A DNA stretch of 64,000 bases. Source: an uncultured Woeseiaceae bacterium (lineage in GTDB: Bacteria > Pseudomonadota > Gammaproteobacteria > Steroidobacterales > Woeseiaceae). Below the pieces are notes generated by a model. That model searched no databases, was not told where the DNA came from, and worked only from the letters and a program-made list of their open reading frames with translations. The stretch lies in assembly GCA_945787845.1 (NCBI GenBank), contig CALZJH010000008.1:1-64000 (forward strand), in the 5' to 3' direction. Below are positions 29,863 through 46,364 of the stretch, one piece after another. Both the position numbers and the translations under genes were made by a program. The first letter of the stretch is position 1; every line of letters begins with the position of its first letter.

Positions 29863-31194
29863 ATGAAACTGGAAGCGGACACGATAGTTGCCCAGGCGAC
29901 GCCACCGGGCGTCGGCGGCATCGCTGTTGTCCGCATCTCGGGAGACCAGACCGAGACCATAGCGAGAACATTACTGGGTAGCTTACCTGAGCCCCGCACG
30001 GCGACCTATCGAATGTTCCGGAACCGTGCAGGCACAAAGCTCGACGCCGGCCTGGCGCTGTATTTCCCGGCGCCCGCGTCGTTTACGGGAGAGTCCGTGC
30101 TGGAGCTCCACGGTCACGGCGGGCCCGTGGTCGTGTCGCTCCTGGTCGATGCGATTGTGGAGCTCGGCGCACGCCACGCCGAGCCGGGGGAGTTCTCCAA
30201 ACGAGCGTTTCTCAACAACAAACTCGATCTTGTGCAGGCGGAGGCTATCGCGGACCTGATCGGTAGCGGGACTGCCCAGGCGGCTCGCGCCGCGCTTCGC
30301 TCCCTGTCCGGCGCGTTCTCGAGAGCCGTCGACGCATTGGCCGAGCAGCTTGTGCGGCTGCGCATGCATGTCGAGTCGGCCATCGATTTTCCGGAAGAGG
30401 AAATCGACTTCCTGTCTGACGACGCGCTCCGCAAACGAATCGAGGAATGCGATGCGGCATTTCGCAGCATTCAGGCGGAAGCAAAACAGGGTCGCGTGCT
30501 GCGTGACGGCTATCGTGTTGTCATCGTCGGCAAGCCCAACGCGGGCAAGTCCAGCCTGTTGAACCTGCTTAGCGGCCAGGACGCCGCCATCGTTACGGAG
30601 GTCGCGGGCACGACGCGCGACATCCTGCGCGAACAGATCGACATCGACGGCCTCGCCGTCGAGCTTGTGGATACGGCCGGCCTGCGCAACGACCCGGACC
30701 GCATAGAAGCAGAGGGCATTCGCCGGGCTCGCGCCGCGCTTGCCGATGCCGACGCGGCGCTCTGGATCCAGGACGCGACCGATGAAGACCAGGCAGAGCA
30801 CAAGGAAAACCTGCCCGACGGCATTCCGGTCACGATCGTGCACAACAAGATCGACCTGAGCGGGCATGAGCCCGGGCTGGTCGGTGGCGAGGTCTTTCTG
30901 TCGGCAGAAACCGGCATGGGTATCGATGCGCTGCGGCGGCGCCTGCGCGACCTGGCCGGCTATGAAAACCAGGGCGAGGGCGCCTTCACGGCGCGCCGCA
31001 GACATATTCGCGCCCTGCAGAAAGCGGCCGACCATTTCGCTACCGGCAGGACAGCGCTCGAAGAGACCAAAGCCGGTGAGCTGCTGGCCGAAGAGCTGCG
31101 GCTTGCACAACAGGCGCTCGGTGAAATCACGGGCGCGTTTTCTGCGGACGACCTGCTCGGGAAAATCTTCTCCGAGTTCTGCATTGGCAAGTAA
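29863..31194 (+). CDS. mnmE: tRNA modification GTPase MnmE
   Basis: 443 aa. An N-terminal folate-binding domain (DTIVAQATPPGVGGIAVVR) is followed by the helical domain and an inserted GTPase domain with G1 GKPNAGKSS (about residue 223), switch GTTRD, G3 DTAGL and G4 NKID. The C-terminus ends FCIGK, whose Cys is characteristic. With MnmG (gene at 41092) it makes the cmnm5 group on wobble U34. It follows yidC in the usual order, interrupted only by the reverse-strand hydrolase gene. Confidence 0.98.
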   Translation: MKLEADTIVAQATPPGVGGIAVVRISGDQTETIARTLLGSLPEPRTATYRMFRNRAGTKLDAGLALYFPAPASFTGESVLELHGHGGPVVVSLLVDAIVELGARHAEPGEFSKRAFLNNKLDLVQAEAIADLIGSGTAQAARAALRSLSGAFSRAVDALAEQLVRLRMHVESAIDFPEEEIDFLSDDALRKRIEECDAAFRSIQAEAKQGRVLRDGYRVVIVGKPNAGKSSLLNLLSGQDAAIVTEVAGTTRDILREQIDIDGLAVELVDTAGLRNDPDRIEAEGIRRARAALADADAALWIQDATDEDQAEHKENLPDGIPVTIVHNKIDLSGHEPGLVGGEVFLSAETGMGIDALRRRLRDLAGYENQGEGAFTARRRHIRALQKAADHFATGRTALEETKAGELLAEELRLAQQALGEITGAFSADDLLGKIFSEFCIGK

Positions 31195-31206: not shown

Positions 31207-32961
31207 ATGTACAGACCACAAAGACTCTTACTGAGCGCCCTGGCCACCGCACTGGTTGCCTGTGCACCGATCGATGATGCGGCTGACGCGAGCGCTGCGC
31301 TTGACGCGCTGCTCGAAAAACATTGGGCTACCGCTGAGGCCGAGAAAGTATTCTTCCGCACGGACCCCGATGGCTGGCGCATGGACGGCAGGCTCTCGGA
31401 GCACTCTGCGGAGGCGCGGGCGAGGCGGGCGCGCTTCAACGACGAGGTGCTTGCGGAGCTCGCCGCTATCCGTCTCGAGGAGCTCGATGCGAAGGACAAA
31501 ATCTCGTATCGCATCTTCAAATATGAACGCGAGACCGAGCGTGAAAGTTACCGCCAGCTCGAGCACTACTTTCCGTTCACCAGCCTGTTCGGTTACCACA
31601 CGTATTTTGCGGAGTCGCCGGCCAGTACGTCGTTCCTCGGCGCAAGCGACTACGACGATTACCTCGTCAGCCTCGCGGACTTCACGCGCTACAACCGCGA
31701 ACATATCGCCGCGTTACGAGAAGCCGTCGACGCGGGTTACACGCACTACTGCGGCAGCATCTCGGACTATGCGCAGACAATAGCGGCACACATCGTTACG
31801 ACGCCCGAGGACAGCGGGCTGTATGTTCCGTTTACGAGGTTTCCAGGGAACGTCGGTGACGACGCGCGAAGCACTTACACAATGAAGGGCGTGGAACTCA
31901 TTAATGATGTCATCGTTCCGGGGTACCGGGAGCTGCTGGCGCTCTTCAACGACGAGTACCTGCCGGCGTGCCGGGCTGAGCCGGGCATCACGTCCTTGCC
32001 CGGCGGCGAGGACTATTACCAGTACCTGATTACGTATTTCACCACGACAGACATGACGGCGGCGGAGATACATCACCTCGGCCTGTTGGAGGTCGAGCGC
32101 ATTCGCGCCGAGATGCAGGGGATCATCGACGCAGTCGGTTTCGACGGCGACTTCGATGCGTTTGTCGAATTCCTGCGCGAAGACCCCCGTTTTTACGCAA
32201 AGACGGCTGACGAGCTTCTCGGCCGGGCCGCGCTCATCAGCAAGACGGCCGAAGGAGAGCTGCCCCGCTTCTTTACGCGCTTGCCGCGCGCGACCTACAA
32301 GATCGTCGGCAACCCGACCCGGGGTGCGTACTACATGGCGCCCAGCGGTGATGGCACGGACTCGGGAACCTACTTCGTCGAGATCGGCGACCTGAACAGC
32401 GAGCCGCTGTACGCGCTGGAGGCGCTGTCGCTGCACGAAGCGGTGCCGGGCCATCACCTGCAATCCACGCTCGCACAGGAACTGGACCTGCCGGCGTTCC
32501 GGCGTGATCTCTACCACTCGGCGTTCGGCGAGGGTTGGGGCCTGTATTCGGAGCGGCTTGGCAAGGAAATGGGCTTCTATCAGGACCCCTACAGCGATTT
32601 CGGGCGGCTGAGTTACGAGGCCTGGCGAGCGTGCCGGCTGGTCGTGGATACCGGGCTGCATGCGTTTGGCTGGTCGCGCCAGCAGGCTGTGGATTTCATG
32701 CTCGAGAACACGGCGCTGAGTGAGGCGGACATCAACAAGGAGGTCGACCGCTATATCACCTGGCCCGCACAGGCGCTGTCGTACAAAATTGGCGAGCTGA
32801 AAATCCGCGAGCTGCGGGCGAGGGCAGAAAGCGAGCTTGGCTCAGCGTTCGACATACGGCGCTTCCACGACATGGTTGTGGGGAACGGCTCCCTGCCGAT
32901 CGCGGTGCTTGAGGACATGGTTGCCGACTGGATAGCCGCCGAGGGCGCCGCGGCTCGATAG
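31207..32961 (+). CDS. DUF885 family protein, putative lipoprotein peptidase
   Basis: 584 aa. A signal peptide ends in lipobox ALVAC (Cys19). The family's signature, LSLHEAVPGHHLQSTL, contains His410-Glu411 and His415-His416, resembling a gluzincin zinc motif; a Glu-rich helix about 30 residues later (FGEGWGLYSERLG) would supply the third ligand. DUF885 proteins are thought to be metallocarboxypeptidase-like enzymes; activity here is inferred. GGAG lies 6 nt ahead of the ATG, 12 bp after the mnmE stop. Confidence 0.87.
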   Translation: MYRPQRLLLSALATALVACAPIDDAADASAALDALLEKHWATAEAEKVFFRTDPDGWRMDGRLSEHSAEARARRARFNDEVLAELAAIRLEELDAKDKISYRIFKYERETERESYRQLEHYFPFTSLFGYHTYFAESPASTSFLGASDYDDYLVSLADFTRYNREHIAALREAVDAGYTHYCGSISDYAQTIAAHIVTTPEDSGLYVPFTRFPGNVGDDARSTYTMKGVELINDVIVPGYRELLALFNDEYLPACRAEPGITSLPGGEDYYQYLITYFTTTDMTAAEIHHLGLLEVERIRAEMQGIIDAVGFDGDFDAFVEFLREDPRFYAKTADELLGRAALISKTAEGELPRFFTRLPRATYKIVGNPTRGAYYMAPSGDGTDSGTYFVEIGDLNSEPLYALEALSLHEAVPGHHLQSTLAQELDLPAFRRDLYHSAFGEGWGLYSERLGKEMGFYQDPYSDFGRLSYEAWRACRLVVDTGLHAFGWSRQQAVDFMLENTALSEADINKEVDRYITWPAQALSYKIGELKIRELRARAESELGSAFDIRRFHDMVVGNGSLPIAVLEDMVADWIAAEGAAAR

Positions 32962-33114: not shown

Positions 33115-33696
33115 ATGTTAAAACGACTATTGGGCATCGCCCTCTTGTTTTCCGTGTCACCGGCGCTCGCGGGTGGCTTGAGCTACAACTTCGTCGAGCT
33201 TGGTTATCAAAACGCCGAACTTGACGACGATTTCGCCGGCATCAGCGTTGATGGCGACGGCTACGGCATCAGCGGCTCCTTCGAGGTCGGCGAAAGCTGG
33301 TTCATCGCAGCCTCGTACGGCACGCTGGATTTTGACTTCGGTGTAGATCTTGATCAGCTGTCGATTGGTGGCGGCTTTTACATGGACTTGTCCGATCGTG
33401 CCGACTTTTATGCCGCGATCTCTTATATCCGGGCCGAAGTATCAGCACCCGGGTTCGGCTCAGCCGACGAAGACGGCTACGGCGTCGCCGTGGGCCTGCG
33501 CGGAATGGTTACGGATAAGGTCGAGCTGAACGGCAGTATTTCGTACGCCGACCTCGGCGATGGCGCTGACGGCACGGCTTTCGGTGCTGGAGCGCTGTAC
33601 AGCTTCACAGACACCTTCGCGCTAGGAGTCAACATCGAAACAGATGATGACGTCACTGTTTACGGCATTGGCGGCAGGTTCTATTTCGGTAACTAA
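33115..33696 (+). CDS. outer-membrane beta-barrel protein
   Basis: 193 aa with a cleavable signal peptide (MLKRLLGIALLFSVSPALAG). The mature part is made of alternating polar and hydrophobic strands with Asp/Gly turns (for example GGGFYMDLSDRADFYAAIS) and ends GIGGRFYFGN, as in small 8-stranded porin-like barrels. Function is unknown. AAGGA precedes the ATG. The 153-bp gap before it holds nothing recognised beyond this ribosome site. Confidence 0.8.
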   Translation: MLKRLLGIALLFSVSPALAGGLSYNFVELGYQNAELDDDFAGISVDGDGYGISGSFEVGESWFIAASYGTLDFDFGVDLDQLSIGGGFYMDLSDRADFYAAISYIRAEVSAPGFGSADEDGYGVAVGLRGMVTDKVELNGSISYADLGDGADGTAFGAGALYSFTDTFALGVNIETDDDVTVYGIGGRFYFGN

Positions 33697-33707
33697 TCGA
33701 AGAACGC

Positions 33708-33741
33708 GGGTCCGGTGCGCTAGTCCACAGACACCGGGCCC
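33708..33741. terminator. hairpin between convergent genes
   Basis: GGGTCCGGTG (33708-33717) pairs with CACCGGGCCC (33732-33741), 10 bp with one G-T wobble, loop 14 nt. It spans the gap between the barrel gene and the stop of the minus-strand hydrolase. It has no T-run but could end transcription from both sides. Confidence 0.45.
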
Positions 33742-34487
33742 CCGGCTTCCTCCAAAAACCTGATCGCCTTCGCAAAGTCGGAGCGCCGCGGCATGCTGTG
33801 GCCCATGTTGCGAATGATCATGAGCTTCGTCTGGTCGATCCCGGCGCGGCGGTAGCCGCGATAGGTCTTCTTGACGGGCTCGAGCGCCTGGTCGCGAGTG
33901 CCCGTGATCAGCACGTACCGGTTTCTTTTCATCAACTCCGCGTTCGGTGATTCCTCCAGGTGCCAAAGGTCGGCGCCGCAGAAGAACAGCCCGCCGCTGA
34001 AAATATCCGCGTTGTCGATGACGGCCATGCTCGCAACCCGGCCGCCGCCGGAAAAGCCGCTCAGGTACACGCGCGCACCATCAATCTCATAGTCTTGCTT
34101 CGCGAGCTCCACGCTCAGCAGCGACAACAGCACCCGTCGTGGCACCCTGGTCCGGTTTCCGGACTGGTCTGCGCCGACCCAGATCATGTTGTGCTCATTC
34201 ATCACGCTGCGCCATTCTTTCGGCATTGCGCCGGAACGTGTCGGGCTGATGTAGACGAGCAGGCCCGCGGGTTTTTCCGGGCTGTAGTCCGGGGGCACAA
34301 AGTACTGCCAGGTGACGGCTTCGTCCGCATCGAACAGGTTCTCATAGCGCGACGACCGGTCACCAAGCACCGCGGCAGCCTCGTGGGTTCTCGAAAACGA
34401 CCCGGTCTGTGCCGGGGGCTGGTCGTCGATCGCCGTGCCGGTCAGTACGACGAACAGGAAGGCAGCGGTTACGACCCGGGAAAAGAT
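33720..34487 (-). CDS. exported alpha/beta hydrolase-like protein
   Basis: About 255 aa if it begins at 34487; the first canonical start is GTG 34370 (216 aa). The frame between them encodes IFSRVVTAAFLFVVLTGTA, a good signal peptide, and lies 10 bp after the preceding gene, as the rest of the operon is packed. No ATG, GTG or TTG is present there, so an ATC (34485-34487) is suspected. The mature part resembles esterase/PHB-depolymerase-like folds: GLLVYISPT, nucleophile Ser in LSGFSGGGRVASM, Asp in LITGTRDQALE and His in RNMGHSMPR. Substrate unknown. Last gene of the six-gene minus-strand cluster. Confidence 0.8.
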   Translation of the reverse strand: MFSRVVTAAFLFVVLTGTAIDDQPPAQTGSFSRTHEAAAVLGDRSSRYENLFDADEAVTWQYFVPPDYSPEKPAGLLVYISPTRSGAMPKEWRSVMNEHNMIWVGADQSGNRTRVPRRVLLSLLSVELAKQDYEIDGARVYLSGFSGGGRVASMAVIDNADIFSGGLFFCGADLWHLEESPNAELMKRNRYVLITGTRDQALEPVKKTYRGYRRAGIDQTKLMIIRNMGHSMPRRSDFAKAIRFLEEAGGPVSVD

Positions 34488-34497
34488 GGCAGCGGCC

Positions 34498-35898
34498 CTA
34501 GTCCGCGGGCGGTACCCGGAAGCGCGGCTCTGTTATCGACATCTCGGTGACCTCGCCGTACTTCGCGACCTGGTCGCGAATCGTGGCCGCGTCGCCGATG
34601 ATGACGAACACAAGGTCGTCGGGCTGCGGATAGACCTCACTGATCGCCAGCGCGACGGACTCGGCGGCTGCGGCCTGCAGTTCGGAGCCGTAGTCATCGA
34701 TGTATGAACGATCGAGTCCGTTCAGCTCGAGGAACGCCAGCATGCCGGCAAGCGACGAAGCCGTCTCGAGGCGCGGCGGAAACTGTCCCATGATGTAATT
34801 TCGCGCCGAGATCATCATGTCGTCATCGAGGCCTTTGTCCTGCAGCCTGCGCAATACGCTGATGGCGAGGTCGATCGCCTCGACGGTCGTACTCGTTTCC
34901 GTGAAGGAGCGAACGGTCACCGGGCCGGGCTGTGTGCGCTGGTCGACGACAGAACGGGCCCTGTAGGTCAGCCCGGCGTTGACGCGCAACTCCGTCACAA
35001 GCATCGACGTGAAGCGGGCGCCGAAGACGGTGTTGGCCAGGCTGAGCTCAGCTCTGCGCGGGTAGCTGAGAGCCACGCCGACGTTGCCAAACCAGAAATA
35101 GGACTGCGTCGCGCCCGGCTTGTCGATCAGCAGGACGCGCCCGCCCGGCGCTTTGGGCGGTGCCGGAATATCCTCGAGCGCCGCAGCGGCGGGCCCCCAG
35201 CGTCCAAACTCGGCCGCAAGCCGGGCCTTCATCGCGGCAGCATCAAAGTCGCCGACGACGGAGATAATGAGCCGGTCGCCACCAAAGTTATTGGTGTAGT
35301 ACTCGAGGACGTCATCACGTGTGATATTCGCCAGTGACGACTCGCTACCCGTCGTTGGCCTGCCGTACGGATGATCACCAAAGATAAACGCGTTGGCATA
35401 GTGCGGCATCAGCGCATTCGGGTCGCCGTCCTTGGCGGCCTTAATCAGGCCGATCGCCCGGGTCTGCTCTTTCTCGAGCTCGTCGGCCGCCAGTGTCGGT
35501 CTTTGCAGGACGTCGGACACGAGCGCCAACATAAGCTCGGCATCTCGCGACAGAAACTCTGCGGCAACCGATGTCGAATCAACGTCTGCACTGACCGACA
35601 GGCGACCGCCGACGTTCGCCGAGGCGCTCGCGAATTCCGCGGCGTCGCGATTCCCGGCACCTTTTTGCATCACCGCTGCGAGTAACTCGGCTACGCCGGC
35701 CTTGCCTTCCGGGTCGGCGACGCTGCCGCCACGCACCTCGGCACGCAGCCCGATAAGCGGCACCTCGTGTTTCTCGCTGAGGAGCAATACGGTGCCGTTT
35801 TCCAGCACGATCCGCTCGTAGTCGGGCAGCGTAATGTCCTGCGACCAGGCCGGGCCTGCGATGAGCAGCGCCGCCACCGTGAGAAGAAAATGCCTCAT
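34498..35898 (-). CDS. M16 family peptidase homologue lacking zinc ligands
   Basis: 466 aa with a signal peptide (MRHFLLTVAALLIAGPAWSQ). Both M16 half-domains are present, but the HxxEH motif is replaced by GVAELLAAVMQKG, so it should not bind zinc. The C-terminal half retains the arginine/tyrosine-type segment NAGLTYRARSVVDQR that closes over substrates. Such inactive subunits pair with active ones (as in PqqL-like or mitochondrial processing peptidases). Its ATG overlaps the stop of the active M16 gene (ATGA), so a heterodimer is expected. Confidence 0.88.
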   Translation of the reverse strand: MRHFLLTVAALLIAGPAWSQDITLPDYERIVLENGTVLLLSEKHEVPLIGLRAEVRGGSVADPEGKAGVAELLAAVMQKGAGNRDAAEFASASANVGGRLSVSADVDSTSVAAEFLSRDAELMLALVSDVLQRPTLAADELEKEQTRAIGLIKAAKDGDPNALMPHYANAFIFGDHPYGRPTTGSESSLANITRDDVLEYYTNNFGGDRLIISVVGDFDAAAMKARLAAEFGRWGPAAAALEDIPAPPKAPGGRVLLIDKPGATQSYFWFGNVGVALSYPRRAELSLANTVFGARFTSMLVTELRVNAGLTYRARSVVDQRTQPGPVTVRSFTETSTTVEAIDLAISVLRRLQDKGLDDDMMISARNYIMGQFPPRLETASSLAGMLAFLELNGLDRSYIDDYGSELQAAAAESVALAISEVYPQPDDLVFVIIGDAATIRDQVAKYGEVTEMSITEPRFRVPPAD

Positions 35899-37577
35899 GG
35901 ACCCTCCTTCTCAAGCGGCGCGCGCAGGACGCCAATCGTCATGTTATTGCGACGGAACACCTTCGCGGCGACGGCCTGCAGGTCGGCAGCGGTCACCGCG
36001 GCGAGCTGCTCCGGGACGGCAAACAGGTTTTCATAATCGCCGGTAAAGACCTCGTAGTTGCCGAGCACAGACGCCTTGCCGTCAATGGTCTGGAGGCTTC
36101 TCCAGAACGACGCGATGCGCAGGTTGCGGGCTTTCTCGAGCTCCTCGGCCGTTACACCCTCGGTCGCGGCCTCGTCCAGCATGCCGAGCAGGCGTGCCTC
36201 GACAGCGGCGGGGTCGCCGCCGGGCGGCAGGGTCATCGCGAAGTAGGCGACGCCGGGATCGAAGCCGCCGGACTGCCAGGCACCGATGTTGAGCAACATC
36301 TGCTCTTCTTCGACCAGGACCTGGTGCAGGCGCGATGACGTTCCTTCGGCCAGTATGGCGAGCAACAGTTCGAGGTAGAGCGTTTCGGGCTCGCCTTCGG
36401 CGCTCGCGTGAAACGCCATGTGCAGCAGCGGTGTTTGCGCGTCCGTCTCAACAAGCAGCCGACGTTCGCCTTCCTGCGGCGGCTCGACCGTGGTAATGGC
36501 GGGTGGGGGATGCTGCCGCGGTATGGGCGAAAAGTACTGGTCCGCGAGCAGGTAAATCTCCTCGGGCGTCACGTCCCCGGCGAAGATCATGGTCAGGTTG
36601 TTGGGCGCGTAATAGGTCTTGAAAAAGTTCTCCAGATCCTGCTGCGTCCAGTTCTCTATGTCAGATGGCCAGCCGATGACCGGGTTTTGGTAGGGGTGAG
36701 CGACGTAGGCCGCTGCGCGAACCTGTTCGTAGAGGCGTCCGAAGTTGTCGTTATCGATACGCAGGCGGCGCTCCGAATACACGGTCGAGCGCTCCGTCTC
36801 GACAACATCCGGGTCAATCGCGAGATTTTGTAGCCGATCGCTTTCGAGCTCGAGGATCGTCTCGAGTGCCGAGCGCGGGAACCAGTCCATGTACACGGTC
36901 AGGTCATTGCTGGTGTAGGCGTTGTTGGCGCCACCGGCGGCTTCCATTTCCTCGTCGAAGTCGCCCTGTGCGCGGGACTCGGTGCCGTTGAACATCATAT
37001 GTTCGAAAAAGTGCGCTATGCCCGTGATGCCCGGGTATTCGTCGCGGCCGCCGGCGCGCACGAAGTTGTACATCGCGACGTTGGGAATGTCGTGATCGGG
37101 CCAGACGATGATCTCGAGCCCGTTTGGCAAATTAAACGATGTGATTTCCCGCGGCACTACAGCCTTGGCCGAGAAATCAAAGACCGGCTTGAGGGGGATT
37201 TCCTCGAGCACGAGGGGCGGCGGCGGTTCAAATTCCGGCAGCAGCTTTTCGCCGATGACGGCGGCGACTCCCAGGACGGCCAGTACCGCAAGCGCGGCGT
37301 TGAGTTTCTGCCCGGTTTTGTAAACGATCGACTGGGTCTGGTCGACATCGATGCCCTTCTTCAGGCCCTCCGGCGTGATCTCGTAGACCCAGGCAAAGAT
37401 GAGCGCAACAGGGAAGCCGATCGCCAGCAGAAGCAAGATGTAATCGCTGACCCACGGCGACAGCCCGAGCCCGCTGACCATGTGGCTGATGATCCAGACG
37501 AACAGCCAGCTGGCGACGGCATAGAGGAGCGCGACCTTGATTACATTGCGTCGCCGAAGTTCGGAGAACAGGGACAT
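35895..37577 (-). CDS. membrane-anchored M16 zinc peptidase with N-terminal multi-helix domain
   Basis: 560 aa. Residues 1-115 form a membrane module: FSELRRRNVIKVALLYAVAS, a second helix DYILLLLAIGFPVALIFAW and the tag YEITPEGLKKGIDVDQTQS, then a third helix (about 93-108). That module usually precedes TPR or cyclase-type domains in gammaproteobacteria. Residues about 145-560 are an active M16 peptidase with His189, Glu192 and His193 in HFFEH and the third ligand Glu269 in ERSTVYSER. The peptidase would face the periplasm or cytoplasm depending on topology; three helices favour the periplasm if the N-terminus is cytosolic. Coupled to the inactive partner downstream. Confidence 0.88.
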   Translation of the reverse strand: MSLFSELRRRNVIKVALLYAVASWLFVWIISHMVSGLGLSPWVSDYILLLLAIGFPVALIFAWVYEITPEGLKKGIDVDQTQSIVYKTGQKLNAALAVLAVLGVAAVIGEKLLPEFEPPPPLVLEEIPLKPVFDFSAKAVVPREITSFNLPNGLEIIVWPDHDIPNVAMYNFVRAGGRDEYPGITGIAHFFEHMMFNGTESRAQGDFDEEMEAAGGANNAYTSNDLTVYMDWFPRSALETILELESDRLQNLAIDPDVVETERSTVYSERRLRIDNDNFGRLYEQVRAAAYVAHPYQNPVIGWPSDIENWTQQDLENFFKTYYAPNNLTMIFAGDVTPEEIYLLADQYFSPIPRQHPPPAITTVEPPQEGERRLLVETDAQTPLLHMAFHASAEGEPETLYLELLLAILAEGTSSRLHQVLVEEEQMLLNIGAWQSGGFDPGVAYFAMTLPPGGDPAAVEARLLGMLDEAATEGVTAEELEKARNLRIASFWRSLQTIDGKASVLGNYEVFTGDYENLFAVPEQLAAVTAADLQAVAAKVFRRNNMTIGVLRAPLEKEGP

Positions 37578-37587
37578 GGCGGCTATT

Positions 37588-38766
37588 CTAGCCGAGCAGG
37601 CCCTCTCGACGATACAGGCGCGCGCAAACCCAGGTCAGGACCACGCCGATAAGCAGCGTGCTGGTGACCGATATGGCGACGTGCAAACCGTTGATGGGTT
37701 CGTTCTTGACCATGTCGACGAGCAGCAGGTGCTGGCTCAGTGACGGCACAAACATGAACTCGGTGCGCGGCCTCAGCGTCAGGATGCTGACGATCAGGAT
37801 CGGCATCGTGGGCGCAATCAGCACGACGCTCAGCCAGGTCTGCGCTTCGCGGTAGCTCTTGGTAAACGAGGCCACCAGTGTCATCAGGGCCGCGCCGACC
37901 AGGATAAAGGGCAGGAAAATCGCCAGCGCGGCGAGCACGACGTCGGGCCCGAAATTCGGCGTCATGCCGAGCTGTTCGAGGGGCATGAACTTCAACGAGA
38001 AGTAAAACGCCGTGAGGCTCAGCATCAGCGACAGCGTCATGAACAGGCAGGTTGCGGCGATCTTGCCGTAGATCAGCTGGTCGCGAGTCACGGGCAGCGA
38101 CAAGAGCGGCTCGAGGGAGCCGCGTTCACGCTCACCGGCGGTTGTGTCGATGGCCAGGTACATGCCGCCCATGAGCGCGGCAAAGACGAAAAAGTAACTC
38201 ATCATCCCCAGCAACATGGCCGAGCGCCCGCTGGGCGTCGAGACGTCGACCTCGTCGATGTTGATCGGCTGGAGCGCACGCGGATTGATGCCACGCGCGA
38301 CCACCCGGGTACCGGTGAGCAGCTGCTGGTAAGCGCGCAGCGCATTGCGTGCCCGGCGCGCATCGCGCTCGGCATCGGAGTTGGCCTGGTCCGAGACAAG
38401 TTCGACCCGGGCCGGAACCATGGCCGCGAGCTGCTCGCCAAACTCGGCCGGAATCACCAGCACGACATCGTGCGTACCAGCCTTGACGGCCTCCATCGCC
38501 GCGGCGGTGTCTTCGGGACCGTCGATAGCGTCGATGTTCTGGCTGTGCAGGAACGACACGAGGTTTGGCGCGTGCTCCTGGCCGATGACGGGCAGCTCAA
38601 GCGTACTCTCCGCGCTTTCGAACGAGCGTTCGATCGACAGGTTGATAACGAAGGCAAACAGCACCGGACCGAAGATCGGGCCCATGAGCAGCGCCGAGCC
38701 CAGCGTGCGGCGATCGCGGAAGTTATCGAGAACCTCCTTGAGAAAGACCGTGAACAGCGTGCCCAT
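37588..38766 (-). CDS. ABC-2 type transporter permease (NatB-like)
   Basis: 392 aa. One N-terminal helix (about 20-40) is followed by a large extracytoplasmic domain (about 45-180) and five or six further helices, among them LLGMMSYFFVFAALMGGMYLAID and IFLPFILVGAALMTLVASF. The segment ERERGSLEPLLSLPVTRDQLI is typical of ABC-2/NatB exporters. Substrate unknown. The start shares one base with the ATPase stop (TGATG), and the M16 gene starts 10 bp after its own stop. Confidence 0.88.
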   Translation of the reverse strand: MGTLFTVFLKEVLDNFRDRRTLGSALLMGPIFGPVLFAFVINLSIERSFESAESTLELPVIGQEHAPNLVSFLHSQNIDAIDGPEDTAAAMEAVKAGTHDVVLVIPAEFGEQLAAMVPARVELVSDQANSDAERDARRARNALRAYQQLLTGTRVVARGINPRALQPINIDEVDVSTPSGRSAMLLGMMSYFFVFAALMGGMYLAIDTTAGERERGSLEPLLSLPVTRDQLIYGKIAATCLFMTLSLMLSLTAFYFSLKFMPLEQLGMTPNFGPDVVLAALAIFLPFILVGAALMTLVASFTKSYREAQTWLSVVLIAPTMPILIVSILTLRPRTEFMFVPSLSQHLLLVDMVKNEPINGLHVAISVTSTLLIGVVLTWVCARLYRREGLLG

Positions 38767-39494
38767 CAGTCGGGCTCCACCCTGTGGATCGCTTTCACGA
38801 ACGCGTCCTCGATATCGTCACAGCCCGTGCGTTCACGGATGCCGTCGATAGAGTCGTCGATAGCGACCCGGCCGTGCGCGATGATGCAGATGTCGTCACA
38901 GAGGGCGGCGACCTCCTGCATGACGTGGCTGGAAAACAGCACACAGCGGCCGTCGTCTTTCAACTTGAGAATCAGCTCGCGCAGCGAACGCGTCGCCATG
39001 ACGTCGAGGCCGTTGGAAGGCTCGTCGAGAATGACGTTTTGCGGATTGTGCACGAGCGAGCGAGCGAGGGAGACCTTGGTGCGCTGGCCCTGCGAAAACC
39101 CCTTGGTGCGTCGCTCCGCGAAGTCCGCGATCTCGAGAAGCTTCACGATCTGGTCGACACGGTCATCGATCTCGGACTTGTCGACGCCGCAAAGCCGCGC
39201 GAAGTAGGCGATGTTCTCGCGTGCGGTCAGGTGCGGATACAGGCCCGCGCCGTGCGGTAATGCGCCGATGCGCTTGCGCGCGGCAAGGCTGTCGGTTACG
39301 ACATTGGCGCCGTCAATCGAGGCGCTGCCCGAATCAGGTTTCAGTACCGTGTAGAGAACGCGCAGCGTCGTCGACTTGCCCGCGCCATTGGGTCCGAGCA
39401 GCCCCGTGATCTTGCCATCGGGGGCGTCGAAGCTCACGCCACGGACGGCATGCACCTTGCCGAAAGACTTGTGAATGTTGTCGACCGTAATCAT
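38766..39494 (-). CDS. ABC transporter ATP-binding protein (NatA-like)
   Basis: 242 aa with all ABC motifs: Walker A GLLGPNGAGKST, signature FSQGQRTKVSLA (SQGQ in place of SGGQ), Walker B NVILDEPSNGLDV and the switch His in LFSSHVM. It pairs with the ABC-2 permease that follows. Its start overlaps the preceding hydrolase gene by 4 bp (ATGA). The exported substrate is unknown; the neighbours suggest peptides. Confidence 0.92.
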   Translation of the reverse strand: MITVDNIHKSFGKVHAVRGVSFDAPDGKITGLLGPNGAGKSTTLRVLYTVLKPDSGSASIDGANVVTDSLAARKRIGALPHGAGLYPHLTARENIAYFARLCGVDKSEIDDRVDQIVKLLEIADFAERRTKGFSQGQRTKVSLARSLVHNPQNVILDEPSNGLDVMATRSLRELILKLKDDGRCVLFSSHVMQEVAALCDDICIIAHGRVAIDDSIDGIRERTGCDDIEDAFVKAIHRVEPD

Positions 39495-40963
39495 GGCGCC
39501 GGCCCGGAAAAGTCGAGGAAGAAAGGCATCACGAAATTACGCTCCATGCATTCGGGATCGACAGCGCCCGGGTCCGCTGCCTCGACGAAGTCGGCAATGA
39601 GGCGGCTCGTGCAGCCGACCGCGATCTGCCCATGCCCCTGGTGCGTGCCGACCAGGGGGAGAAAATTGGTGAGATCGGCCGCGGCAAGAACGGCATAGCG
39701 CGGCGGCGTTATCGGGTCGGCGTCACCGGAGAGCAGAAGGAACGGCAGGTCGGTCGCGAGCGGCACTTTGAATTCGGTGTCGATAGGGCCGGCCGGCCAG
39801 GAGGCACAGATCGCCTCGAGCGTATCGAGCTGGTAGGAGCCCATGTAGCTGGCGTCGATGCCGTCGTAGTCGATGATTGTCCTGTCGAGGAACGGTACGT
39901 CTTCGGTGCACATCACGGCGTTGTGCATGCCGAGAGCAAGCATGTCCGACATCTGCAGCGCGGTCATCATGTACTGCCCGGCGATGGGCGCCCAGTTGCC
40001 CTGGCCCGCCTCGTGAATAAACAGTGGCAGGAGGGCGATCGTTGTCGGGCTGTATGCGAGCAGCCGAACCGCCCCGGCGAACTGGCCTTCGCCCAGCGAA
40101 ATGACCTCCGTGCGCCCCGTGTTGGGGTGTGGCACGGAGACTTCCACCGGACCCTCGCGCAATTGCGTGACGATGCGGGCAAAGGTCGCCGCAAGATCGG
40201 GGAAGCGCTCGTTACAAGCTGCGTCCCCGGTGCAGCGCGCGAGGATGTTGTCCACGGCCCTCTGGCTTTCCGTCGCAATTTCCGGACCCAGCGACAGTTG
40301 TGGCGGCACGACGCCGTCGATCACGACCGTGCGCGTGGCCTCCGGATAGCGCCTGGCGAAATGTTGGGCCACGCGCGAGCCGTAAGACACGCCGTAGAGG
40401 TTCAGCGCCGAGTAACCCAGCGCGACACGTACGGCTTCGAGATCCGTTACGGCGACGCTGGTCGTGAAATAGCGAGGATCGTGCGGCAGTTTTTCAAGAC
40501 ACTCGTCAATGAACTCGATCGTGTCTTCAAGATTGAATTCGGCTTCGAAAATAAGGGCGTCATCGTCGATCGGGCAGTCCATGCGCGCCGACTCGCCCGT
40601 GCCTCGCTGGTCTACAAGCAGGATGTCCCGATTGCGGCGCAGCGGCTCGAATGCGCCTCGCATCATCGCGTAGAACTCGACGGTGCCCTGGCCGGGCCCA
40701 CCGGCAATCGGCACGACCGGGTCCGTTTCCGGGCTCAGGTTCAGCGCGGGGACGACGGCAACGCGCAGCTCGATCGGCGGTGAATCGGGGTCCGCCGGAT
40801 TGAGCGGCCTCTGCAGCGTGCCGCAGCGGGCCTTGATACTCGGGTAACCCGGTCCGGCGCTGATACGACACTCCTCCAGCGCCAGGGATTGCGCCCCGGC
40901 CGTGGCACACAGGCACAGCAGGGCAAGACCGCTGGTCAGTGTGCGAAGGATGATTCTGGTCAT
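39491..40963 (-). CDS. exported alpha/beta hydrolase, S33/tripeptidyl aminopeptidase-like
   Basis: 490 aa with a signal peptide (MTRIILRTLTSGLALLCLCATAGA). The catalytic Ser193 is in NLYGVSYGSRVAQ, Asp in SGDADPITPP and His in THQGHGQ. The oxyanion region PIAGGPGQG and DQRGTGES are typical of prolyl/tripeptidyl aminopeptidases. Several Cys (CRIS, RCGTL, MDCP) suggest periplasmic disulfides. It is the first gene of the six-gene cluster and overlaps the ABC ATPase by 4 bp, implying that peptide cleavage and the transporter are produced together. Confidence 0.88.
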   Translation of the reverse strand: MTRIILRTLTSGLALLCLCATAGAQSLALEECRISAGPGYPSIKARCGTLQRPLNPADPDSPPIELRVAVVPALNLSPETDPVVPIAGGPGQGTVEFYAMMRGAFEPLRRNRDILLVDQRGTGESARMDCPIDDDALIFEAEFNLEDTIEFIDECLEKLPHDPRYFTTSVAVTDLEAVRVALGYSALNLYGVSYGSRVAQHFARRYPEATRTVVIDGVVPPQLSLGPEIATESQRAVDNILARCTGDAACNERFPDLAATFARIVTQLREGPVEVSVPHPNTGRTEVISLGEGQFAGAVRLLAYSPTTIALLPLFIHEAGQGNWAPIAGQYMMTALQMSDMLALGMHNAVMCTEDVPFLDRTIIDYDGIDASYMGSYQLDTLEAICASWPAGPIDTEFKVPLATDLPFLLLSGDADPITPPRYAVLAAADLTNFLPLVGTHQGHGQIAVGCTSRLIADFVEAADPGAVDPECMERNFVMPFFLDFSGPAP

Positions 40964-41091: not shown

Positions 41092-42933
41092 ATGTCCCGT
41101 TTGTATGACGTCATCGTGATTGGCGGCGGTCACGCCGGTACGGAAGCCTCCCTGGCGGCCGCGCGGGCGGGTGCGCATACGCTTCTTGTGACGCACAAGA
41201 TCGCGACCCTGGGGCAGATGAGCTGTAACCCGGCAATCGGCGGTATCGGCAAAGGGCATCTGACCAGAGAAATCGACGCCCTGGGCGGTGCGATGGCGCA
41301 GGCGATCGATCGGGCGGGTATCCAGTTCCGCACCCTGAATGCGTCGAAAGGGCCGGCCGTCCGCGCGACGCGGGCGCAGGCGGATCGCGAGCTTTATCGT
41401 GCGGCGATCCGGCAACGCCTGACAACGCAGCCCAACCTGGAGATCGCAGAAGCGGCCGTCGATGACCTGATTATCGAGGGCGGGCGAGTCGCCGGCGTCG
41501 TCACCGACAGCGGCGACAGGCATGCTGCGAAGGCCGTTGTGCTGACGACCGGTACCTTCCTTGGCGGCCGCATCCTCGTCGGGAAAACCGAAGAAGCCGG
41601 TGGGCGCGTCGGCGACGCGCCGTCGATACGTCTGGCACAGCGCCTGCGCGAGATGCCGTTCAGCGTCGCGCGCCTGAAGACCGGAACACCGCCGAGGCTT
41701 GACGGCAGGACGCTCAATTACGAACTAATGCAGGAACAGCCGGGCGATGTACCGATGCCGGTGTTTTCGTTCCTGGGTTCGCGTAGCCAGCACCCGCAGC
41801 AGGTGTCGTGCCACATCACCAAGACGACCACAGAGACGCACGACATCATTCGTGACTCGCTGGATGAGTCGGCGATGTTCTCGGGTCTCATCGAAGGTGT
41901 CGGGCCGCGCTACTGCCCCTCGATCGAGGATAAGGTCGTGCGCTTTGCTGACAAGGCTTCGCACCAGGTATTTGTGGAGCCAGAAGGCCTGGCGACGGAC
42001 GTCGTTTACCCGAACGGCATATCGACCAGCATGCCGCTGGCCGTGCAGGAGCGCTTTGTGCGCTCGATTGTCGGCTTCGAGGCCGCCGAGATTACACAGC
42101 CCGGCTACGCGATCGAGTACGACTACTTCGATCCGCGCGACTTGCGGCCAACGCTCGAGACGAAGCCCGTACAGAACCTGTACTTCGCGGGGCAGATTAA
42201 CGGCACCACGGGCTACGAAGAAGCCGGTGCCCAGGGCTTGCTGGCCGGCATCAATGCCGCGCGCCGGGCGCACGAGCTCGACGAGTGGTTCCCGCAGCGC
42301 CACGAAGCCTACCTCGGGGTCCTTATCGACGACCTGATCACGCGCGGCGTGTCCGAACCCTATCGCATGTTCACAAGCCGGGCCGAGTATCGCCTGCTGC
42401 TGCGCGAGGACAATGCCGACCTGCGGTTGACGGAAAAAGGACGAACGGTGGGACTGGTCGACGAAGACCGCTGGTCCGCCTTCAATGCGAAATACGAGGC
42501 GGTCGTGGCGGAACAGGATCGACTGGCCAGCATGTCCGCGAACGGCACCAGGGCGGCTGCGCTGCTCAAGCGTCCGGAGTTTGGCTACGCCGAGGTTGCG
42601 GAGCTCGTCGGTCACAGTGAGGCGCTGGCCTCAATGCACCCCGAGCAGCGCGAACAGGTCGAGCTGCAGGTCGAGGTGCAGGCGAAATACGCGGGCTATA
42701 TCGACCGGCAGGAGCGTGAGATAGCGAAACACGCCAGGCAGGATTCACTCCGCCTGCCGGTTGACATGGACTACGAACGCGTCGACGGGCTCTCCAACGA
42801 GGCGCGGCAAAAACTCGTGGCGGCACGCCCGGCTACGCTCGGCCAGGCGTCGCGGCTCGAAGGCATGACCCCGTCGGCCGTGTCGCTGATCCTGGTTCAT
42901 CTCAAGAAGAGGCAGCTGCAGAAAAGCGCCTAG
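41092..42933 (+). CDS. mnmG: tRNA uridine-5-carboxymethylaminomethyl modification enzyme MnmG
   Basis: 613 aa. The N-terminal FAD motif is [18 protein letters not shown], followed by [14 protein letters not shown]. The family pattern [11 protein letters not shown] and the region [19 protein letters not shown]-like ([19 protein letters not shown]) are present, and a C-terminal helical domain binds MnmE. It works with MnmE to modify U34 of tRNAs. In most bacteria rsmG follows directly; here an oligopeptide operon and other genes intervene and rsmG is at 54779. Confidence 0.98.
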
Positions 42934-42975: not shown

Positions 42976-44586
42976 ATGAATACGCTACGCATACTTGGTC
43001 TGTGCCTGGTGTTCGCTGGTCTCTACGCCTGTGGCGGGACAGACGAACCGGTCGGCCCCCCCGACACGCTGCAGCGCGGCCTGCCCACCGATGCGGAAAC
43101 GCTTGACCAGCATAAGGCCCGCAGCATCCAGGCAGCCGATGTGTTGCGCGATCTCAGCGAGGGCCTCGTCGGGTATTCGGCCGATGGCCAACTGATTCCA
43201 GCCGCGGCGGAAAGCTGGGATGTGTCGGGGGATGGGCTGCGGTACACGTTTCACCTGCGCGAGGGACTGCGCTGGTCCAATGGCGATGCGCTGGTTGCCG
43301 GCCACTTCGTCGCCGGTATGCGGCGGCTGGTCGACCCGGCGACCGCGGCCGTGTACGTGGACCTGCTGTCCGGGATAGAAAATGCGGCGGCCATTTCGGC
43401 CGGCGACATTCCTGTGTCGATGCTCGGCGTCGAGGCGCCTGACGACAGGACGCTCGTGATCCGGCTGGCGCAGCAGGCGCCGTATTTCATCAGCCTGCTG
43501 TCGCACCCGAGCACCTTTCCGATTCACCCGCCGTCCATCGCCGAGCACGGCGACGCATTTGCGCGGCCGGGTCGCATGGTGTCGAACGGCGCCTACAAGC
43601 TGGACGCCTGGGTGCCCGGCGCACTGATCGCGCTGAAACGTAACGAGCATTACTGGAACAACGCCGCGACGGCAATCGACGCGGTCAACTACCACGTCCT
43701 GGTGCAGGATACGGCCGAACTGAATCGTTACCGGGCCGGGGAGCTGCACACGACCAGCACCGTGCCGCCGGACGCGTTCGCGCAGGTTCGCGCACAGTAC
43801 GGCGACGAACTGCACGTTGCGCCGTATCTTGGCGTGTACTACTACGGCTTTAATCTGACCAAGCCGCCGTTCAAGGACAATCCGGCACTGCGCCGGGCAT
43901 TGTCGATGGCCGTCGATCGTGAACAACTTGCCGAGAAGGTCGTCGGCCGTGGCGAAGCGCCTGCATACAGCTGGGTGCCGCCGGGCGTGAATAACTACGA
44001 GCCGCCGCTGTCGAGTTTTGCCTCGCTAGGCAAGGGAGAGCGCGAGCAGCTTGCGCGCCGTCTCTACAGGGAAGCCGGCTACAGCGAAAATAATCCGCTG
44101 CGCGTGGAGATCCGCTATAACACCAACGACACGAACCGGAAGATTGCCGTGGCCATTCAATCGATGTGGCGCGATGTGCTGGGTGTCGAAACGGTCCTGA
44201 TCAACGAAGAGTCGCAGGTGTGGCTCGCCAACATGCGCCAGGCGGAGGTTACGCAGGTGTTCCGCGCGAGCTGGATGGGTGACTACAACGACGCGCACAC
44301 GTTTCTCAGCATCCTGCAGACTGGCAATGCCATGAACATGCCTCGCTATGAGGATGAGGAGTATGACGACCTGATGGAGCGCGCGGCGGCGCAGGGCGAC
44401 GAGAAGCAACGCCGGCTGCTTCTCGAGGAAGCCGAGCGCCACATGCTTTCGGATCATCCGGTCATACCGCTCTATTTCTACGTTTCGAAGCATCTCGTCA
44501 GCCCCCAGATCGAGGGTTGGGGAGACAACGTTCTTGATTACCATTACTCTCAGCAGCTGAGTTTCAAAGCGGCAGACAGTCAATAG
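42976..44586 (+). CDS. oppA: oligopeptide ABC transporter substrate-binding lipoprotein
   Basis: 536 aa. The signal peptide ends in the lipobox GLYAC. It is an SBP_bac_5 (cluster C) protein: DVLRDLSEGLVGYSADGQLIPAAAESW near the N-terminus, FHLREGLRWSNGD, and YYYGFNLTKPPFKDNPALRRALSMAVDR in the body. It captures peptides in the periplasm for OppBC. First gene of the importer operon, 42 bp after mnmG, so read-through from mnmG is possible. Confidence 0.93.
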   Translation: MNTLRILGLCLVFAGLYACGGTDEPVGPPDTLQRGLPTDAETLDQHKARSIQAADVLRDLSEGLVGYSADGQLIPAAAESWDVSGDGLRYTFHLREGLRWSNGDALVAGHFVAGMRRLVDPATAAVYVDLLSGIENAAAISAGDIPVSMLGVEAPDDRTLVIRLAQQAPYFISLLSHPSTFPIHPPSIAEHGDAFARPGRMVSNGAYKLDAWVPGALIALKRNEHYWNNAATAIDAVNYHVLVQDTAELNRYRAGELHTTSTVPPDAFAQVRAQYGDELHVAPYLGVYYYGFNLTKPPFKDNPALRRALSMAVDREQLAEKVVGRGEAPAYSWVPPGVNNYEPPLSSFASLGKGEREQLARRLYREAGYSENNPLRVEIRYNTNDTNRKIAVAIQSMWRDVLGVETVLINEESQVWLANMRQAEVTQVFRASWMGDYNDAHTFLSILQTGNAMNMPRYEDEEYDDLMERAAAQGDEKQRRLLLEEAERHMLSDHPVIPLYFYVSKHLVSPQIEGWGDNVLDYHYSQQLSFKAADSQ

Positions 44587-44628
44587 GAAGCGGGCGAGAC
44601 CGCATCCGGGCCGCACTGGATAAAGAAC

Positions 44629-45552
44629 TTGCTGCGATACACCTTGCTCCGCATCCTGGGAGCAATACCAACGCTGCTGTTGGTGATTGCTCTTGCGTTC
44701 CTGATGGTGCATGCCGCGCCGGGCGGGCCGTTTAGCAGTGAGCGCGTTCTGCCGGAGCACGTCGAGAAAGAGATCGAAAGGCGGTATCACCTCGACGAGC
44801 CGCTGCCGAAGCAATTCCTGCGCTATGTGTCCGGGTTGTTGCAGGGCGATCTCGGGCCCTCGTACAGTTACCGAGACTACGACGTTGACGAACTCATCGC
44901 CGATACCTTTCCCGTTTCGCTGAAGCTCGGCGCGCTGGCCATGGCGCTCGCACTACTGCTCGGCGTCTCCGCCGGCACCGTGGCGGCCCTGCGCCAGGGA
45001 GCCTGGCTGGACAAGTTCGTCATGGGCTTTTCGATGACGGGGATTTCCATCCCCGTATTTGTCGTCGCGCCCGTACTCGTGTTGTTTCTCGCCGTAAAAC
45101 TGCAGTGGCTGCCGGCAGGATGGACGAGCGAGGTCGGCCTGAAGCGCCTCTTTCTTCCGGTCGTGACGCTGGCGCTGCCACAAATTGCGTACATCGCGCG
45201 CCTGACACGCGCGAGCATGATCGACGTGCTGAACCGGGATTTCATTCGCACGGCGCGCGCGCAGGGGCTCGGCACGGCGACGGTCGTGCGCGTGCATGCG
45301 CTGAAACCGGCCATGCTGCCAGTGCTCTCTTACATGGGTCCGGCGATCGCAGCCGTGTTGACTGGCTCCGTCGTGGTCGAAGAGGTCTTCGGCATACCCG
45401 GCCTCGGCCAGCAGTTCGTGCGGGGCGCCTCGAACCGGGACTACACGCTGGTGCTGGGCATCGTCGTGTCCTACGCGACGCTGATCATTTCGCTGAATCT
45501 AATTGTCGACATTCTCTATGGCGTGATCGACCCGCGGGTGCGGTACCGGTGA
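44629..45552 (+). CDS. oppB: oligopeptide ABC transporter permease OppB
   Basis: 307 aa from TTG 44629, a non-ATG start with GGA a little upstream. Six membrane helices of the BPD_transp_1 fold; the EAA loop is in LTRASMIDVLNRDFIRTARAQGLG. The N-terminal helix RYTLLRILGAIPTLLLVIA and the Leu/Gly region HLDEPLPKQFLRY are typical of OppB/DppB. Its stop overlaps the oppC GTG. Confidence 0.93.
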   Translation: MLRYTLLRILGAIPTLLLVIALAFLMVHAAPGGPFSSERVLPEHVEKEIERRYHLDEPLPKQFLRYVSGLLQGDLGPSYSYRDYDVDELIADTFPVSLKLGALAMALALLLGVSAGTVAALRQGAWLDKFVMGFSMTGISIPVFVVAPVLVLFLAVKLQWLPAGWTSEVGLKRLFLPVVTLALPQIAYIARLTRASMIDVLNRDFIRTARAQGLGTATVVRVHALKPAMLPVLSYMGPAIAAVLTGSVVVEEVFGIPGLGQQFVRGASNRDYTLVLGIVVSYATLIISLNLIVDILYGVIDPRVRYR

Positions 45553-46364
45553 GCGCCAATCGCAGTATTCGCGTCACGGCCGGCATCCTCATTACGATTG
45601 CGCTGGTGGCACTGGTCGGCCCGTGGATCAGTCCGCACGATTATGTCACCACCAACTTTGACAATCCGTTGGCGCCGCCATCACTCGGCGACATGCACCT
45701 GTTCGGTACCGACGACCTCGGGCGCGACCTGTTCGTTCGCACGATGCTGGGAATCCGGATATCCCTGCTGGTCGCAATTGTGGCGAGCTTCGTCAGCCTG
45801 GTCATTGGCGTGGCATACGGCGCGATCGCGGGTTTTGTCGGCGGCCGCGTGGATGCCGCGATGATGCGCTTTGTCGATACCCTTTACGCGCTGCCGTTTA
45901 TTTTCTTCGTCATCCTGCTCATGGTCGCGTTCGAGCGGAACTTCCTGTTGATCTTCGTGGCGATCGGCGCGATCAACTGGCTCGACATGGCGCGCATCGT
46001 GCGCGGCCAGACGCTGAGCCTGCGTGAGCGCGAGTTCGTCGAGGCGGCGCGGCTGACCGGTGTCAGCACCCTGCGCATCGTGTTTCGTCACATCGCGCCG
46101 AACCTGATCGGCATCGTGATCGTGTATGTCACGTTGACGATCCCACAGGCCATTCTCGTGGAGTCTTTCCTGAGCTATCTCGGCCTCGGCGTGCAGGAAC
46201 CGCAGACGTCGCTCGGTGCGCTGGTCGAGGCCGGCGTTACGCTAATGGAGCGGGCGTCGTGGTCGCTGTTAATTCCGGCAACGCTGCTGGCGCTCATCCT
46301 CATGTGCTTCAACTTTCTTGGCGATGGACTGCGCGATCAATTCGATGCGAGGAACCTGTCGTGA
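45549..46364 (+). CDS. oppC: oligopeptide ABC transporter permease OppC
   Basis: 271 aa from GTG 45549, overlapping the oppB stop as GTGA; the frame runs open further upstream over oppB. The N-terminal helix, the marker FGTDDLGRDLFVR and the EAA loop LREREFVEAARLTGVS are typical of OppC/DppC. It ends in another GTGA overlap with the fused ATPase gene. Confidence 0.93.
   Translation: MSANRSIRVTAGILITIALVALVGPWISPHDYVTTNFDNPLAPPSLGDMHLFGTDDLGRDLFVRTMLGIRISLLVAIVASFVSLVIGVAYGAIAGFVGGRVDAAMMRFVDTLYALPFIFFVILLMVAFERNFLLIFVAIGAINWLDMARIVRGQTLSLREREFVEAARLTGVSTLRIVFRHIAPNLIGIVIVYVTLTIPQAILVESFLSYLGLGVQEPQTSLGALVEAGVTLMERASWSLLIPATLLALILMCFNFLGDGLRDQFDARNLS

Follow-up and report, generated by a model that had tools for sequence, protein, structure and literature searches.

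Two separable peptidase modules, an S33-ABC-2 exporter trio and an M16B heterodimer, joined at one locus in a genus of Woeseiaceae

The locus that lies between mnmE and mnmG in the window (the whole stretch of 64,000 nucleotides analyzed here, from a Woeseiaceae-type bacterium of marine sediment) combines two known kinds of module, brought together a single time in the common ancestor of a genus. One is a trio of genes for an S33 peptidase, an ABC ATPase and an ABC-2 permease, and the other is a pair of genes for the subunits of an M16 peptidase. The first-pass annotation had taken these five genes, together with an adjoining exported hydrolase, for a single unit with one function. The tight packing holds up, but the six genes do not form a unit: a survey of the neighborhood finds them apart in related genomes, the very outcome that the annotation had named as its refutation. 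The locus is a lineage-specific variant of known parts and not a new six-gene pathway, and its packing does not imply a single function.

Composition of the locus

The features of the locus and its flanks, by position in the window, are as follows.

29863..31194, plus strand: mnmE, flanking gene and conserved neighbor (NF003661, 453 bits)
33720..34487, minus strand: exported alpha/beta hydrolase, private to the window's genome at this place (weak Peptidase_S9/PHB-esterase similarity)
34498..35898, minus strand: M16b, inactive partner subunit (PDB 3amj_B, "inactive subunit," 3.2e-38)
35895..37577, minus strand: M16a, active-type M16B peptidase subunit, predicted to be membrane tethered (Pfam M16 and M16_C)
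36999..37013, minus strand: HxxEH zinc motif of M16a (residues 189-193)
37218..37577, minus strand: residues 1-120 of M16a, an N-terminal module with three long helices predicted
37588..38766, minus strand: ABC-2 permease, NatB-like (Pfam ABC2_membrane_3, 5.2e-29)
38766..39494, minus strand: ABC ATPase, NatA/DrrA-like (Pfam ABC_tran, 1.2e-32)
39491..40963, minus strand: S33/TAP-like serine hydrolase with a signal peptide (Pfam Abhydrolase_1 and TAP-like C-terminal domain)
41092..42933, plus strand: mnmG, flanking gene and conserved neighbor (TIGR00136, 842 bits)
42976..45552, plus strand: first genes (OppA-like and OppB-like) of an oligopeptide importer next to mnmG (NCBIfam)

The five ORFs from the S33 peptidase to M16b were confirmed on the minus strand, and the gene families and gene order proposed earlier were borne out by Pfam, NCBIfam and PDB searches. 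The S33 protein carries both the Ser-Asp-His triad and the TAP-like C-terminal domain of an S33/TAP serine peptidase. Its best PDB matches, Hip1/CaeA (Hip1 7sfm, 7.8e-18), cover residues 21 to 434, and the triad is conserved among homologues at Ser193 (50/51), Asp416 (50/51) and His444 (51/51). The protein thus shares an intact triad with Hip1/CaeA and other TAP-type serine hydrolases (MEROPS S33), but the similarity is low, and in contrast to them it is the fixed partner of an ABC-2 exporter.

Membership of the exporter in the ABC-2 family is clear by Pfam. The ATPase matches the DrrA subfamily model at 1e-67, which is under the model's cut-off, and no NatA- or NatB-specific model was matched, so that the NatAB assignment is made by resemblance; NatAB-like is our own label for both proteins. 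The permease belongs to the same superfamily as the NatAB-type exporters and the NF041647 permease/CPBP family, which it matches at 218 bits against a cut-off of 435. A soluble domain is predicted after its first helix in a low-confidence model (pLDDT 60), and a fold search gave weak matches to ABCH and NosDFY that are little informative. Unlike members of the CPBP family, the window permease (392 amino acids) ends without a CPBP protease domain, as do the trio permeases of other lineages, which end near 390 to 400 amino acids. These lengths led us to reject the idea that the ancestral permease was fused to CPBP and that M16 took the place of this fusion afterwards; the 652-amino-acid open frames of loci L181 and L200 are ordinary permeases with an extra open frame upstream. 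The ATPase and permease also differ from these known systems in being preceded by an S33 peptidase. A PADLOC search for defense systems gave no specific match in the locus, with only a generic TAP-like model on the S33 protein. The first module is best explained, judging from sequence similarity, as a putative exported S33/TAP-like serine peptidase made together with a NatAB-like ABC-2 exporter.

The second module is an M16 pair with one active and one inactive subunit, as had been read earlier. M16a carries the motif HFFEH at residues 189 to 193, with Glu269 located 76 residues past the second histidine, and H189, E192, H193 and Glu269 are invariant in all 91 sequences compared. M16b lacks HxxEH and carries instead the R/Y pair, R305 and Y312, in 89/91. 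For both subunits the best PDB match is the SPH2681/SPH2682 M16B peptidase of Sphingomonas sp. A1 (PDB 3amj; 6.6e-74 to 3amj_C for M16a), which likewise has adjacent active and inactive subunits, with HxxEH-E76 on one and R/Y on the other. Foldseek places the AF2 model of M16a on 3ami_A with a TMt of 0.91, which gives the M16 fold of the catalytic subunit. By homology, the pair is assigned to the SPH2681/SPH2682-type M16B heterodimers; the zinc site would then lie on M16a, and M16b would form the half of a clam-shell chamber that bears R/Y. The Sphingomonas protein is an active heterodimer with substrates that include insulin, dynorphin A and bradykinin (2025 review, PMC12731061).

In contrast with SPH2681/SPH2682, the M16 pair of the window sits behind the S33-ABC-2 trio, and its M16a has an N-terminal three-helix membrane module, which is the novel element of the locus; such a membrane tether appears to be new on an M16B-type peptidase. 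AF2 places helices at residues 12-37, 41-66 and 85-112, ahead of the M16 fold, with low to moderate confidence in this region. No Pfam model covered the module (residues 1 to 120 of M16a) in the proteins scanned. The same module, with the common motif "SELRRRNV...EITPEGLK," occurs on eight further proteins of the window's genome (L129-L136), which are of TPR type, with a Pfam check made on two of them. Fused M16a stands apart from the unfused form by a distinct break in both score and identity, and it is confined within the family to the window's genus, where 21 of 27 genomes have it, versus 0/34 outside. The operon M16a of L014 (8196-9668) has an ordinary short N terminus without the three helices, which indicates that the tether is dispensable. 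Positive residues at the N terminus of M16a argue that the M16 domain should face the periplasm, with the predicted chamber anchored in the inner membrane.

Packing of the genes and the sixth gene

In the window, the S33 and ATPase genes overlap by 4 bp, the ATPase and permease genes overlap by 1 bp, the permease and M16a genes are 10 bp apart, and M16a and M16b overlap by 4 bp, exactly as in the first-pass annotation. Its fifth junction, of about 10 bp from M16b to the hydrolase, depends on an ATC start at 34487. Overlaps of 1 to 4 bp are conserved inside the trio and inside the M16 pair across diverged genomes; in most trio loci the S33/ATPase overlap is 4 bp, and that between ATPase and permease is 1 or 4 bp. 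They come back in dozens of diverged genomes, which is far from what chance would give. The permease-M16a spacing is not conserved and ranges from 9 to 585 bp among the operon loci; within the clade it exceeds 131 bp in one locus only. In L148, an unrelated ORF of 156 amino acids with a META domain (HslJ-like) is inserted at this point. Tight packing is therefore a property of each module, and the 10-bp spacing of the window is the short end of a loose junction. Internal promoters and terminators within the locus did not rise above chance level.

The sixth gene is a real member of a hydrolase family, with homologues at 30 to 39% and a match in 8 of the 147 genomes of the order, the window's own genome included. 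It is absent beside M16b in all the relatives read and would be a later, private addition to the locus. Over 34370-34535 on the minus strand, its frame offers only the ATC at 34487 ahead of the signal-like segment, with no ATG, GTG or TTG, and the first canonical start, GTG at 34370, would remove that segment. The cause may be a non-standard start codon, an assembly frameshift or coupling to M16b.

Distribution and history of the two modules

M16a retrieved 80 loci, and in nearly all of them its gene is accompanied by that of M16b. The trio adjoins this pair in Woeseiaceae-type genomes only; in most of the bacteria read, the pair stands without it. Conversely, the trio occurs without M16 genes in the other genera of the family that were read, in two genomes of the window's own genus (G306 and G367) and in other Gammaproteobacteria. 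In other families of the order it again has no M16 neighbors, and the M16 orthologues are on other contigs. Across the phylum sample, the closer relatives of the permease retain the S33 and ATPase genes in the same order; the more distant ones (L190-L199 and L201) consist of an ATPase and a permease, like the NatAB-type exporters, with no S33 detected in flanks of 1.5 kb. As a set of three genes, the trio is old both in the order and in other Gammaproteobacteria, and M16 genes do not usually accompany it.

The converse case is L167 (G412:C48), from a genome of the same genus (1.5 Mb, 90% complete), which has mnmG, M16a, M16b and mnmE with no trio; no S33 match was found in that genome. In a tree of the concatenated trio, the M16-bearing loci fall in one clade of 22 leaves, of which 21 have M16; the exception, L149 (G367), is nested within the clade, and G306 (L146) is outside it. 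Several nodes near the base of this tree are modestly supported (FastTree values of 0.55 to 0.8). In the M16 tree, the pairs of the genus are monophyletic and stand beside pairs from other families of the order. The simplest reading of these trees is that M16 and trio were probably joined once, and that the pair and the trio were each lost once, the latter in G412. The joining is best dated to the ancestor of the genus once the G306 lineage had split off, and no repeated joining was seen among the relatives read. The modules are separable both ways, the pair having been lost once and the trio once. Only the window's genome has the hydrolase at this place, and conservation of all six genes as a set was rejected.

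The flanks of the locus are also partly conserved. In the oligopeptide importer (OppA-like, OppB-like and following genes, spanning 42976-46364 of the window), NCBIfam gave 9e-118 for OppA, under the cut-off, and 5.5e-118 for OppB, over the cut-off. An OppA-like match adjoins mnmG in 33 of the approximately 42 loci having both mnmG and S33, and some of the others are cut by contig ends. A gene for a small outer-membrane beta-barrel protein lies at 33115-33696 of the window, and seven relatives (L014, L117, L140, L144, L149, L154 and L156) have the same gene between M16b, or the permease, and mnmE. A DUF885 gene at 31207-32961 is convergent with the operon. A DUF885 gene also lies directly upstream of the M16 pair in L160 and L020; DUF885 was tried as a recurrent partner of M16 and rejected, at 1/80 loci only.

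Possible functions of the joined modules

The architecture of the locus, its active-site residues, and the history and separability of the modules are shown by the results above. For cellular location, substrates and cooperation between the modules, the reading that we infer, and to which we give an even chance, is that two independent modules joined at one locus serve periplasmic peptide breakdown. The M16 peptidase would cut longer peptides in the periplasm, the S33 peptidase would trim its products, and the adjoining Opp importer would take up the result, while the ABC-2 exporter would expel some substrate. The Woeseiales are peptidase rich and likely take part in protein turnover in sediments (PMC7082342). 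Together with the Opp importer beside mnmG and the lack of a conserved precursor, this favors breakdown linked to scavenging; the scavenging or processing role offered earlier as an alternative stays plausible, with some support from the importer. An exporter is, however, not a need of scavenging and counts against this model, and the linkage of Opp to mnmG could be old synteny without functional meaning. The short M16a of L014 and the M16 pair kept without the trio in G412 also count against it, as they indicate that neither the tether nor cooperation between the modules is essential.

A functional link between the modules may also be lacking altogether, the two being neighbors by accident between mnmG and mnmE or merely sharing a transcript. 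The single joining event, the variable junction with its unrelated META-domain ORF in L148, and the separability in both directions all agree with this. We hold it to be rather unlikely, since the arrangement was kept in 21 of the 22 genomes of the clade across considerable divergence, with the gap between the modules held to 131 bp or less in all but one. At the other extreme, a tethered M16B chamber would be physically attached, within the inner membrane, to a complex of S33 and the NatAB-like exporter and would cut peptides on their way out of the transporter. Such an arrangement is doubtful; if true, it would be an export-coupled periplasmic peptidase built by domain shuffling in one genus.

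Slightly less probable still is a role in envelope defense, where the exporter and peptidases would serve to clear peptides that are antimicrobial or misfolded, and not to nourish the cell. An exporter of the NatAB/DrrA-like family and the predicted periplasmic location of the M16 and S33 peptidases are in line with it, but the module has no regulator or sensor gene, and the nearby Opp importer suggests nutrition. The packing of an M16 heterodimer with an ABC exporter had earlier brought to mind a RiPP-like system for peptide maturation and export. In such a system M16 would cleave a leader, the ABC-2 exporter would export the peptide and S33 would trim it. The subtilosin cluster also has an ABC exporter. 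There, the M16B pair AlbE/AlbF carries out the maturation of subtilosin (PMC12731061). Unlike the Alb genes, the window set has no precursor and no modification enzyme among its six genes (the flanking genes searched were mnmG, mnmE, DUF885, the outer-membrane protein and the oligopeptide-importer genes), and its trio and pair are separately inherited. Over all operon loci, their three gaps held 141 ORFs of at least 20 amino acids, and no small ORF among these was conserved from locus to locus; matches came from the outer-membrane protein gene, from near-identical records and, in the M16b-mnmE gap, from short fragments that a few loci share. The sole sizeable ORF in a permease-M16a gap, that of L148, is the META-domain protein and not a precursor. 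The predicted topology of M16a, moreover, puts the chamber outside the inner membrane. Maturation and export is for these reasons the least credible of the readings weighed here.

Breakdown of periplasmic peptides by two joined modules thus remains our preferred reading. A limited search of the open-access literature gave no description of the whole gene set, in agreement with the first-pass annotation, or of the conserved S33-ABC-2 exporter trio that is picked out here. Beside this trio the locus places a heterodimeric M16 peptidase, apparently tied to the membrane by a module that it has in common with TPR proteins. Close relatives with the trio alone, with trio and pair, and with the pair alone provide a natural experiment on the role of the M16 pair.
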